Part shown: positions 4,206-22,793 of the stretch, piece after piece
Position numbering within the stretch: position 1 is the first letter of the stretch
Layout: each line of letters starts with the position of its first letter
IMG/VR virus record: IMGVR_UViG_3300021197_000661
Location: 1,358-24,565 of that record
Length of the DNA: 23,208 nt
Strand: one strand, 5' to 3'
Source: a virus
Position numbers and translations under genes: made by a program
The notes under the pieces: generated by a model
Seen by the model: only the letters and a program-made list of their open reading frames with translations
Databases searched by the model: none
Told to the model about the DNA's origin: nothing

Positions 4206-5984
4206 TTATTTATTTACGAATCCTTGATTAGGCATATCCTTTGGTCGCATAGCCACTTTCTTGTCGTTTGTTTCGGGTTTAAAACCTTCTTTCTTCGCCT
4301 TGTTTACAGATATTTCTGCGTTTGGATTGGTTGCATCAGGCTTAACTCCTTTTCCCATATACGTCTTGCGCATCCAAAAATGATGACAACCACCACCGCC
4401 TTTGTAAAGCCATATATCATAAGTATCAGCACCATTCAATCCCCATCCTGCATTTACCGCTCTTTGGCTCATTTGCATTATATCTTCTTTGCGATATATT
4501 TTTGCAGATGACACCATTTTCTTACAAAACTCTCTACTGTTTGCAGAAACTCTTAATGGCGCGTATTGGTATCTTACTTTAAATTTAAGTCCATCAGCTT
4601 CGCCATCTTGTTCACTCCCTGCATTCGGTCTTGCTGTTCCTGTACTCGGTCTTGCTGTTTCTGTACTCGCTAAACCTATCATTTTATCTAAGGCTTCTTC
4701 TTGGTCGTAGTCTACTTCTCTTTCATCTACAAGTTCCCAATTTTCTAAATCTTCTTCCTCTCCAAACTCATCTAGTAAGTCAAACATCTTATCATCATCA
4801 AAAGACTCTTCCTTAGCCAATTTAACGCCTGTTTCTTCCTCTCTAGCCTCGTCTGTGATGGCATTATCAGTTTCAATAAATTCAAGCGGTTGTAGGGTCT
4901 TAAAATAAAGTTTTAAACTAATACCGTTCACAGAAAGAATATCGTCTATTGCTTCAATTATTAGGTCTTGGTAAGGTCTAATAGTAATGTTGTGGAAAAG
5001 TAGGGATGCTGTCTTGATTTCGTCAGCGTTATTTCCCAGTCCACTATTTCCATCGCGAATACCTAAAAGCAAAGGTGATGTTACCCTGTGTGCTACCATT
5101 AACTTAGTAGAACATTCAGTAGATAAATATTCGTAGTGTGCAGGTGCATCATTTAAAGGAACGTCATCTATTGTAGTCTTGCTTTCAGCGTTGTTATTAA
5201 AGGCTATAATTACTTTTTCACCTCTTGAACCTGTAAGCTTGTTCATCACATCATTCTTGATGCTCATTTGCTTTTCTCTATCAGGTACACCGTTGTTAAA
5301 GTTTACAACCTTAGTACCACTAAAACCGTTTTGAACATCGTTGATAAGGTAGTCAGATATTTCTGATTCTAATTCAGAATATGCTAACCCCCCTTGATAA
5401 TCAACAGGGCAATAATAATCGTACCCACTTACATAACGCTTAACCATTTTTATTTCTGGTTCTTTTCCGTTACCGAATCCAAACGCTGCTATTCTTTGTG
5501 GTTTGTCCGCAGGTTTCTTACTTCCCCAGTCGTGGTGATAGTAGTATGCTTCTATTTTCCCATCCTTGTTACACTTTTCTGCACGTAGTGTTTGTCTTGG
5601 GAAGTGTTCGCTTCTTACTACTTTACCATCTTTGTATAACACTTGAAAAGATGCTTCACCTAATAATTTTAAATCAAGTGAGATTTTACGCAAACAATCG
5701 TTGTGAAAGATAGAACGTAATGCAGCGTACTCATTTGTCTTTGTGCTGCTGTCTAAGGCATCTAATCCTTTTCCGTATATCATATTGCTGATACCGTTAA
5801 TTATTGCATTAGAAGTCGTAGAATTAGTATATAAGTCTATAAGGTATTGATAGTAATTATTATCACTACCATAAGCAACCCAATCCTTTTTTTTATCTTC
5901 AGTTACCTTTGGTCTGTTGTAAGAAGATAAGCTAACAACGTGGATGCTGTCTGCATTAGCTTTTATTTTGTTGTTTCTTGCCAT
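4206..5984 (-). CDS. Portal protein with C-terminal extension domain
   Basis: 592 residues. The first ~380 have portal-like features: SYNRPKVTEDKKKDWVAYGS near the start, an early helix region (ATTSNAIINGISNMIYGKG-type segment about 52-70), PHFPRQTLRAEK-like beta strands, and a segment with HRVTSPLLLGIRDGNSGLGN preceding long helices, as in the stem and crown. An acidic linker follows (EEEDLENWELVDEREVDY). From about 466 to 545 there is a separate domain (YAPLRVSANSREFCKKMV, then TYDIWLYKGGGGCHHFWMRK). I know this piece from other Bacteroidetes phages as a portal-linked or stand-alone module of unknown role. The start overlaps the upstream stop (TAATG at 5984). Its place after the capsid and tail tube genes is unusual. 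Confidence 0.78.
   Translation of the reverse strand: MARNNKIKANADSIHVVSLSSYNRPKVTEDKKKDWVAYGSDNNYYQYLIDLYTNSTTSNAIINGISNMIYGKGLDALDSSTKTNEYAALRSIFHNDCLRKISLDLKLLGEASFQVLYKDGKVVRSEHFPRQTLRAEKCNKDGKIEAYYYHHDWGSKKPADKPQRIAAFGFGNGKEPEIKMVKRYVSGYDYYCPVDYQGGLAYSELESEISDYLINDVQNGFSGTKVVNFNNGVPDREKQMSIKNDVMNKLTGSRGEKVIIAFNNNAESKTTIDDVPLNDAPAHYEYLSTECSTKLMVAHRVTSPLLLGIRDGNSGLGNNADEIKTASLLFHNITIRPYQDLIIEAIDDILSVNGISLKLYFKTLQPLEFIETDNAITDEAREEETGVKLAKEESFDDDKMFDLLDEFGEEEDLENWELVDEREVDYDQEEALDKMIGLASTETARPSTGTARPNAGSEQDGEADGLKFKVRYQYAPLRVSANSREFCKKMVSSAKIYRKEDIMQMSQRAVNAGWGLNGADTYDIWLYKGGGGCHHFWMRKTYMGKGVKPDATNPNAEISVNKAKKEGFKPETNDKKVAMRPKDMPNQGFVNK
4623..4664 (-). repeat. Two imperfect 21-nt direct repeats inside the portal gene
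   Basis: Two adjacent 21-nt units differing at two positions encode a seven-residue repeat (TETARPS / TGTARPN) in the linker between the portal core and the C-terminal domain. This looks like a slippage-type expansion in a flexible linker. Confidence 0.75.
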
Positions 5985-6367: not shown

Positions 6368-6397
6368 AAAAAAAAGGGCATCATTTCTGACACCCTT
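6368..6397 (-). terminator. Rho-independent terminator, GAAA tetraloop type
   Basis: The minus-strand transcript forms a 10-bp stem, AAGGGUGUCA / UGAUGCCCUU, with a perfect GAAA loop, followed by at least six more U. The stem includes G-U pairs that would be A-C mismatches on the other strand, fixing the direction as leftward. It closes the candidate ncRNA and precedes the 113-aa gene. Confidence 0.85.
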
Positions 6398-6645
6398 ATA
6401 TATACTTGAGGACTTATAACATATTGTAAATAGCATCCTCAGACTATTAGGATTTTCTGTTCTTGTCTTGTCGCGTTGGTACTGACTCACCCGCACTAAG
6501 GGTGGTTGTAGATTGCTAGCTTACCTACATCCCAATCTTTGGTATCTATTATGTGTTTCTACACAACTTTACTACAAGACTCAAACAGATTTTACCCTGC
6601 TGTTTTAGATTATCTTAAAGAACGTTGTAACTGTATCAACAATTA
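6368..6645 (-). ncRNA. Candidate structured non-coding RNA of about 280 nt
   Basis: The block between two terminators (6398-6717) holds no credible gene but has a consensus-like promoter at its right end (6651-6682) and a strong terminator at its left end. Complementary segments on the minus strand give a coherent fold. A 5-bp stem pairs 6643-6647 with 6626-6630. A 6-bp stem pairs 6600-6605 with 6583-6588. A 7-bp long-range helix pairs 6574-6580 (GUCUUGU) with 6465-6471. This helix encloses three hairpins: 6552-6565, 6510-6538 (AGAUUG/CAAUCU) and 6488-6504 (CACCC/GGGUG). Next come a 6-bp stem 6436-6441 with 6407-6412 and the terminator hairpin. The segment inside the long helix is visibly less AT-rich than its flanks. 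It does not look like a tRNA or tmRNA, and I cannot place it in a known RNA family. The exact 5' end is inferred from the promoter. It could instead be a long attenuator leader of the portal operon. Confidence 0.55.
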
Positions 6646-6650
6646 CACTA

Positions 6651-6682
6651 CAAACATATAACGCTTTTTCGATATAAACAAA
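6651..6682 (-). promoter_or_regulatory. Bacteroidetes-type promoter upstream of the candidate ncRNA
   Basis: On the minus strand TTTG (6682-6679), a 20-nt spacer and TATGTTTG (6658-6651) match the Bacteroidetes vegetative promoter pattern TTTG / TAnnTTTG with a spacer in the accepted range. It lies just downstream of the tail tube terminator in a gene-free stretch, so its transcript would start near 6645 and run into the structured RNA. Confidence 0.65.
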
Positions 6683-21106: not shown

Positions 21107-21349
21107 CTAGTCTATAAACAAAGGTACATCTTCATTGATAGAAATGTCCTTAGTTTCTTTTGGTTTCCCAAGATAGTAGTTAAGATAAAGAGTAACCCAT
21201 TTAATATCGCCAGACTTTACACCCTCTGATAACGCAGCTAATGCATCATCTTCTAATGGGGATAAACGTTCTACAAGCTGTATTTCTTCGGCTTTAGGTT
21301 TTCTACCTGCACCTGCTCTTGCTCCACCGTTAAACTTTCTTTTATCCAA
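21107..21349 (-). CDS. terS: Terminase small subunit candidate
   Basis: 80 residues. It has a basic Gly/Ala-rich opening KRKFNGGARAGAGRKPKAEE, the start seen in many small terminases and their relatives, then helices LSPLEDDALAALSEGVKSGD and KWVTLYLNYYLGKPKETKD, and an acidic end. It is shorter than many small terminases but sits directly before terL. The only start available is a TTG at 21349, because an in-frame stop lies 15 bases upstream and there is no internal Met. That is one of two TTG starts inferred in this window. Confidence 0.75.
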   Translation of the reverse strand: MDKRKFNGGARAGAGRKPKAEEIQLVERLSPLEDDALAALSEGVKSGDIKWVTLYLNYYLGKPKETKDISINEDVPLFID

Positions 21350-21978: not shown

Positions 21979-22159
21979 TGATGTTTGTTATTGTATCGTG
22001 TCGTGTTTCGTTTATTGCTTTTAGTATTCCTGCACAGGCTTCGTAATCTTCTACATCTTCATAGAGTTGTATTATATCTTCCAACTCCTGTATGCTTACT
22101 CCTTCTCTTATGTCTAGTAAGGTAAGGTAGTAAAACTCTTCTATTATGTCTTTATTCAA
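21965..22159 (-). CDS. Small acidic helical protein, unknown
   Basis: 64 residues, very acidic, helical: MNKDIIEEFYYLTLLDIREG then VSIQELEDIIQLYEDVEDYE and ACAGILKAINETRH. It has no ATG; the frame begins with a TTG at 22159, inside the stop of the methyltransferase gene (8-nt overlap), and ends 14 nt inside the next gene. That coupling on both sides supports expression. No family is recognised. Acidic small proteins in early regions are often inhibitors or regulators, but nothing here shows this. Confidence 0.5.
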   Translation of the reverse strand: MNKDIIEEFYYLTLLDIREGVSIQELEDIIQLYEDVEDYEACAGILKAINETRHDTITNINEKL

Positions 22160-22793
22160 AAAGTTCCGTTTGGTTGGTGTTTTGTTTTCTTATTATCCCT
22201 AAAGCTGTTTCTAGTATTGTTTTTCCTGCTTCATAGTCTACAAGGTTTCTTGCCATTTTATTTATGGGTTGTTTTCCTTTGTACTTATAGAAGTCGTAGT
22301 CGTGGAACTCACACCATTTTTTAACTTCATTAGCACTCTCCATTATACTTGCTTTTCTTTCATTAAGGCTTTTTGGCAAAACAAAATTAGACCAATACAA
22401 ATGCCTACCTATTTTTTTAGCAGGTATTAAAGGTTCATAATATGGCACAACGTTTTCCACTAAGTACTTCCCTTCAAACCACTTATCTAAAAACAATATT
22501 TCTTGATATAACTTCATATCAGGGTATGCAGCAGTTGTTGTGCTTCTTCTTGCAAATCTTGCTCTACTGTGTGTTGGACAAGGTGGTGAACTCCATATAA
22601 AATCAAACTCTTTGTAATGGTCTAGCAAATATTGATGTGCATCTGCTACAATTACTTTGTCGTTTGGGAATCTTTCTTGATACAACTTTGCTGCTTCGGG
22701 GTCTAGTTCCACAGCTGTTACTTCTACACTTGTAACTTCGTCCCATTTGTATCTGTTGCCCCCTAGACAGGCATATAAATTTAATATCTTCAT
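22152..22793 (-). CDS. DNA cytosine-5 methyltransferase, compact phage type
   Basis: 213 residues, about half the usual length. Motif I is LNLYACLGGNRYKW at 4-17 with the SAM loop, motif II AVELDPEAAKLYQERF, motif IV WSSPPCPTHSRAR at 67-79 with catalytic Cys72, and motif VI YLVENVVPYYEP with Glu113-Asn114-Val115. The C-terminal block QPINKMARNLVDYEAGKTIL resembles motif X-like ends of other small phage Dcm-like enzymes. The target-recognition domain is reduced, so sequence specificity is uncertain or needs a partner. It could protect phage DNA from host restriction. The gene overlaps its neighbours at both ends (TAATG at 22793; 8 nt with the TTG start). Confidence 0.82.
   Translation of the reverse strand: MKILNLYACLGGNRYKWDEVTSVEVTAVELDPEAAKLYQERFPNDKVIVADAHQYLLDHYKEFDFIWSSPPCPTHSRARFARRSTTTAAYPDMKLYQEILFLDKWFEGKYLVENVVPYYEPLIPAKKIGRHLYWSNFVLPKSLNERKASIMESANEVKKWCEFHDYDFYKYKGKQPINKMARNLVDYEAGKTILETALGIIRKQNTNQTELFE

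Follow-up and report, generated by a model that had tools for sequence, protein, structure and literature searches.

The locus studied here raises the question of whether a folded, protein-free block between two phage virion genes is an RNA gene in its own right or serves the genes beside it. The block occupies the minus strand at 6682–6368 of the window, by which we mean the whole 23,208-nt stretch of viral DNA analysed (positions 1,358 to 24,565 of IMG/VR record IMGVR_UViG_3300021197_000661), and comprises a Bacteroidota-type promoter, a strongly folded stretch and a GAAA-capped terminator.

Genes around the block and its predicted transcription signals

On the minus strand, the block is preceded by a conserved gene (7319–6771) that belongs to PHROG 19091, annotated as of unknown function and called tail tube in an earlier note on this DNA. 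It is followed by a small gene (6325–5984) that precedes the portal gene (5984–4206, identified by a PHROG portal match). Elsewhere, the window encodes an M15-type peptidase, a possible endolysin (791–1159), and a C-5 cytosine methylase-like protein (22152–22793).

The promoter TTTG-N20-TATGTTTG that the earlier note placed at 6682–6651 of the minus strand is readily read from the sequence, with the −33 element TTTG at 6682–6679, the N20 spacer and the −7 element TATGTTTG at 6658–6651. This predicted promoter fits the Bacteroidota −33/−7 consensus TTTG/TANNTTTG (PMC6847099), the G of TATG being an unfavoured letter (TAHH). Counterpart promoter sequences lie upstream of the homologous RNAs of L010, L229 and L226 described below. 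The GAAA-capped terminator, also claimed earlier, was found at 6397–6370, as a hairpin at 6397–6374 with a T run. The same terminator resides at empty sites: in L006 and L007, two relatives without an insert, 29 of 29 positions are identical. A second, near-duplicate terminator (6752–6717) lies behind the upstream gene and bounds the insert, which is thus flanked by two near-duplicate terminators. We infer from these motifs that the host RNA polymerase would start transcription of the block at ~6646 and end it at ~6370.

Fold of the RNA

The minus-strand sequence 6650–6368 has a minimum free energy of −76.2 kcal/mol (z = −4.71), and none of 200 shuffled sequences folded as well, in a comparison that the earlier note had proposed. 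For the minus-strand block z lies between about −4.3 and −4.7; it is −3.5 with the terminator left out and −1.9 for the opposite strand.

The computed structure begins with a 5′ leader hairpin (6647–6626), in which 6647–6639 pair with 6634–6626. An outer helix, P0, is formed by 5′ strands within 6598–6583 and 3′ strands within 6462–6449 (6598–6594 with 6453–6449, and 6589–6583 with 6462–6456), and its pairing is maintained despite changed bases in L229 and L226. The conserved core (6580–6465), delineated by alignment, RNAalifold, pair counts and the core model R2, consists of a closing helix, P1, that encloses four hairpins. The 5′ strand of P1 (6580–6571) pairs through 6580–6574 and 6572–6571 with 6465–6471 and 6473–6474. 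P2 (6567–6548) carries an invariant GAAA loop; P3 (6542–6532) is an invariant mini-hairpin, CCAA-AGA-UUGG; P4 spans 6529–6507; and P5 (6506–6485) has an invariant stem with the core CACCC-loop-GGGUG at 6504–6488. The single-stranded junction J5/1, CAGUACCAAC (6484–6475), which is near-invariant with one variable base, leads back to P1. The 3′ hairpin P6 (6447–6400) includes the pairing of 6440–6435 with 6413–6408. Overall, the RNA would fold as a compact multi-helix junction, with P0 and P1 around P2–P5, plus the 3′ hairpin.

Much of this architecture had been anticipated. The helix 6574–6580/6465–6471 and the three hairpins it was said to enclose are correct to within a few bases, P1, P2 and P4 being backed by covariation and P5 being invariant; the fourth mini-hairpin (6542–6539/6535–6532) was missed, and the leader hairpin and the boxA-like site behind it (6623–6613) had not been listed. 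The proposed 3′ hairpin 6407–6412/6436–6441 was right to within a base and shows a compensatory change in L010, where a window A-U pair is G-C. The proposed flanking hairpin 6583–6588/6600–6605 is unsupported and was rejected, P0 pairing of 6589–6583 being preferred.

Homologues and covariation

Three homologues were found in IMG/VR, two of them (L229 and L226) by exact-pattern scans with parts of the core. L010 and L229 carry the block at the same site as the window, with 96–97% and 80% identity, respectively. Two window A-U pairs are G-C in L010, and several other differences fall in loops. The L226 RNA (2399–2123, minus strand) is located between the gene for the large subunit of the terminase and that for an HK97-type portal. 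No similarity to the window's tail-tube, small or portal proteins could be detected in this phage. A covariance model built from the window and L010 only scored L229 at 173.5 bits and L226 at 107.5 bits, and the minimum-energy folds of L010, L229 and L226, each computed separately, give the same core.

The core alignment comprises 116 columns and four sequences, aligned by MAFFT without structure. Across its 35 pairs, 97.1% of the pair cells are paired, and 10 pairs show compensatory change on both sides, in a set of four sequences of which two are near-identical and all come from metagenomic contigs. These values were reached by 0 of 500 shuffles, and sliding the partner by 1–3 columns as a control left 0–3 compensatory pairs. 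Compensatory pairs make up five of eight in P2 and four of seven in P4; little or no variation is seen in P3, P5, the P2 GAAA loop and the junctions. The RNA is also more conserved than the genes flanking it, at 96% against 84–85% identity in L010 and 80% against 73–74% in L229. No conserved reading frame was found across the four RNAs.

The core-only model R2 recovered the four members and no more among 95 loci. Pattern matches at L082–L103, L227, L228, L230 and L231–L272 lack the core and were discarded as chance hits, mostly in coding sequence; weak matches of another model, R1, at other loci were to terminators or to the leader in L032. A blastn search of INPHARED phages with the block and the L226 core gave no match, a search of plasmids gave two chance 28-nt matches only, and neither the leader nor the tail-tube protein turned up in scans of genome contigs.

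The homologues and their covariation therefore strongly support the earlier proposal of a discrete structured non-coding RNA with its own promoter and terminator. We regard it as a new structured-RNA family.

Comparison with known RNA families

Rfam 15 was scanned whole, including its ROOL, GOLLD, pRNA, 6S, riboswitch, ribozyme and CRISPR repeat families, and at the gathering score no match was obtained for the window, L010, L226, L229 or the related inserts. At a relaxed threshold, the best sub-threshold scores were far under the cut-off. ARAGORN detected no tRNA or tmRNA in the window, in agreement with the earlier note, which did not recognise the RNA as a tRNA, a tmRNA or a member of any other known family. 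The 6S-Flavo RNA covariance model (RF01685) had no match in the window's record, a result to be read alongside its failure to match any control genome. The short pieces TAGATACC and CGGGTGAGT, which we take to resemble universal 16S rRNA words, were set aside, as such likeness is expected by chance at that length.

An insertion hotspot for small cassettes

Relatives of the region were collected through the conserved upstream protein (80), and further ones through the sequence ahead of the small gene. Among 108 distinct gaps, most are ~90–110 nt long (~95) and contain a single terminator and no RNA. L006 is an example without the RNA, its upstream and portal genes having 89% and 86% DNA identity to those of the window. 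The block thus separates genes that are direct neighbours in relatives. In 13 of the sampled relatives the same spot is taken by a different cassette that has a promoter and a terminator of its own; the sampling behind this count is skewed in favour of relatives of the gene found in the window. Most of these inserts encode small proteins and a few are further RNAs, and with the window and L229 they are all promoter-gene-terminator cassettes. They include cassettes for a 64-aa protein (L044 and L059, with relatives in L069 and L155), for a 129-aa protein of PHROG 3754 (L010, with a relative in L152) and for other small proteins (L022, L171, L115 and L150), as well as untranslated structured cassettes in L032 (438 nt), L064 (75 nt) and L009 (71 nt). 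A reverse-strand gene also sits at this spot in the cultivated Nonlabens phage P12024S, which is distantly related and shares the gene order. The promoter type and this relative lead us to infer marine Bacteroidota as the host group.

Because most relatives lack the block, other cassettes occupy the same spot and L226 carries the RNA in an unrelated HK97-type phage, the block behaves as an insert at a hotspot and as a mobile cassette that has spread horizontally between lineages. The sequence context marks the block as an RNA moron that occupies an insertion hotspot and whose family moves between phages.

Several of the other inserts have features of their own. In P12024S (L218), the hotspot gene is the hypothetical P12024S_04, and a similar reverse-strand gene, P12024S_07, lies directly behind the portal gene (coordinates 2750–2980 and 5123–5365). 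The structured RNA cassette of L032 (5664–6101, plus strand; z = −3.5) has no Rfam match, is unrelated to the window RNA body and shares with the window RNA solely the 5′ hairpin-boxA leader (59 nt, 91.5%). The promoter-hairpin-terminator cassettes at L064:979–1184 and L009:5544–5752 are very short and are candidate small RNAs (z about −4.2 and −4.8). The protein morons in the L022, L171 and L115 inserts and at L221:1215–1290 have a common leader, in which the hairpin GTCAATAATGAC straight behind the promoter is followed by conserved AGGnGTTAAGAGCnTCACAAAGATTTCA, in which a possible small stem varies compatibly between copies; the frame of L022 starts with no obvious ATG, and the leader may be a cis-regulatory RNA element. 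Another motif, GTTCTTTRAAATA, stands behind a short hairpin at L010:3607–3619, in the L150 insert and at 21190–21202 of the L050 record (G006). It heads two protein morons and is rare elsewhere, 3 of 27 records of these phages having the pattern.

A leader with a boxA-like site

Close to the predicted transcript 5′ end, behind the leader hairpin, lies the boxA-like site GTTCTTTAAGA (6623–6613), a perfect match to GYTCTTTAANA. This is the boxA consensus for gammaproteobacterial rRNA and suhB (PMC5725501). The match is the single one in the window, where 0.35 are expected by chance and 29 of 100 shuffles have one, and the gammaproteobacterial consensus may not be that of Bacteroidota. The leader hairpin is common to the window, L010 and L032, the last of which has the same leader atop a different RNA body. 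BoxA recruits NusB/NusE and shields untranslated transcripts from Rho. The 5′ hairpin and boxA-like site suggest Nus-factor antitermination in the window copy: they would recruit a NusB/NusE complex, and the untranslated transcript would be spared from Rho cut-off. Antitermination would not be general in the family, because L229 and L226 lack both the leader hairpin and boxA; their promoters lie close to P0.

Alternative explanations and the role of the RNA

The reading that we favour, with some caution, is that of an RNA moron, a self-contained structured-RNA gene of ~280 nt whose product most probably acts in trans on a conserved host protein or ribonucleoprotein, for host takeover or counter-defence. 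The position of the block could also suggest that it acts in cis, as an attenuator or riboswitch in the leader of the small-gene/portal operon: it immediately precedes that operon and ends in a terminator, the L226 RNA also precedes a portal gene, and conservation of the junctions is of riboswitch grade. The attenuation role suggested earlier is nevertheless very unlikely, as most close relatives retain the terminator and the same genes without the RNA, the terminator that parts the block from the portal operon is the resident copy of empty sites, and unrelated protein genes fill the same slot. In the minimum-energy and centroid folds, no competing antiterminator was seen. No conserved association with a regulated gene was found, the portal and other genes downstream of the window and L226 RNAs being unrelated. 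An assembly or packaging RNA, comparable to phi29 pRNA and working with the portal or terminase, would draw its main argument from the fact that both known positions adjoin the portal gene, in L226 between it and the gene for the terminase large subunit. Close relatives with 79–95% identical portals do without the RNA, the portals of the window and L226 show no detectable similarity and the whole Rfam library gave no match, and we regard this role, also raised in the earlier note as an assembly scaffold, as improbable. A trans-acting RNA is favoured over both because the block is conserved above its flanking genes, occurs in unrelated phages, is dispensable for this type of phage and retains the sequence of its junctions although its stems drift.

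The remaining alternatives concern the nature of the product itself. Single-stranded junctions that hardly vary, stems that drift and a GAAA tetraloop that does not change are features typical of RNAs with a tertiary fold and would suit a ribozyme or ligand-binding RNA with the conserved core as its active site, but no Rfam ribozyme or riboswitch matched and no catalytic signature was recognised, leaving this explanation with little probability. Counter-defence functions are common among moron-like accessory cassettes, and the patchy presence of the block would be in keeping with an RNA anti-CRISPR or another decoy mimicking a host defence RNA. Phage RNA anti-CRISPRs exist (PMC10651486). The absence of Rfam matches, CRISPR repeat families included, and a fold much larger than a lone repeat make such a decoy unlikely, if slightly less so than an active-site RNA. 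A decayed protein moron with an incidental fold might be imagined from the neighbouring protein cassettes and from a 29-nt stretch that resembles part of the L221 moron gene (25 of 29 positions). This origin from a degenerate reading frame was rejected and is barely credible: it is contradicted by compensatory changes over four genomes, by the missing frame and by conservation above that of the flanking coding genes.

A trans-acting regulator or effector, one of the roles suggested in the earlier note, thus stays the best reading of the RNA moron. A marine Bacteroidota phage would have acquired the block between two of its virion genes, with promoter, RNA and terminator in one cassette, and the RNA of the block would bind a conserved host protein or ribonucleoprotein in trans, favouring infection. 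Binding of a conserved host partner is suggested because the junctions and GAAA loop are near-invariant, the stems drift and the same RNA occurs in an unrelated phage. Given a covarying fold shared with an unrelated phage and the lack of a catalogued family, the RNA is probably a mobile tool that phages use during infection. A more speculative and on balance doubtful possibility is that it belongs to a class of phage RNAs with tertiary folds that has not been described before. Such an RNA would travel as a cassette among unrelated Bacteroidota phages, some copies being shielded from Rho by a captured boxA leader of the rRNA type, and would bind directly to a conserved host machine (ribosome, RNA polymerase or a defence complex) and so disarm or redirect it.

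Searches for accessory phage genes almost always look for proteins; here the candidate is an RNA with covariation, present in unrelated phages and outside Rfam. The hotspot also holds the RNA-only cassettes of L032, L064 and L009 and offers a practical starting point in the search for further RNA effectors of phages, with marine flavophages as a system in which to test them. The boxA-like site on a phage non-coding RNA would, if genuine, provide a testable example of viral recourse to the rRNA-type antitermination of the host for making an untranslated RNA.

Relation to known systems

The block resembles the morons of tailed phages in having its own predicted promoter and terminator, in its place between virion genes that relatives carry side by side and in its patchy distribution; it differs in that its product would be a structured RNA rather than a protein. 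As in rRNA leaders, a hairpin is followed by the boxA-like site near the 5′ end of a putative untranslated transcript, but the block is not an rRNA operon, and the arrangement occurs only in the window, in L010 and, with a different body, in L032. ROOL and GOLLD, structured non-coding RNAs of unknown function in phages and prophages (PMC12286853), are likewise phage-encoded; they are much larger (~600–800+ nt) and often near tRNA islands, and no Rfam covariance model matched here. Phage regulatory small RNAs such as PreS, VpdS, 24B_1, AgvB and others (PMC12197685) share with the block RNA a phage origin and its proposed trans-acting mode. Those of the PreS/VpdS type mostly pair with mRNA or use Hfq, whereas the block RNA conserves junction sequence and a complex fold, which suggests protein or tertiary recognition. 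Like phi29 pRNA, the block RNA is phage-encoded, structured and located near packaging genes; unlike it, the block RNA has no Rfam match and is missing in close relatives with the same portal.
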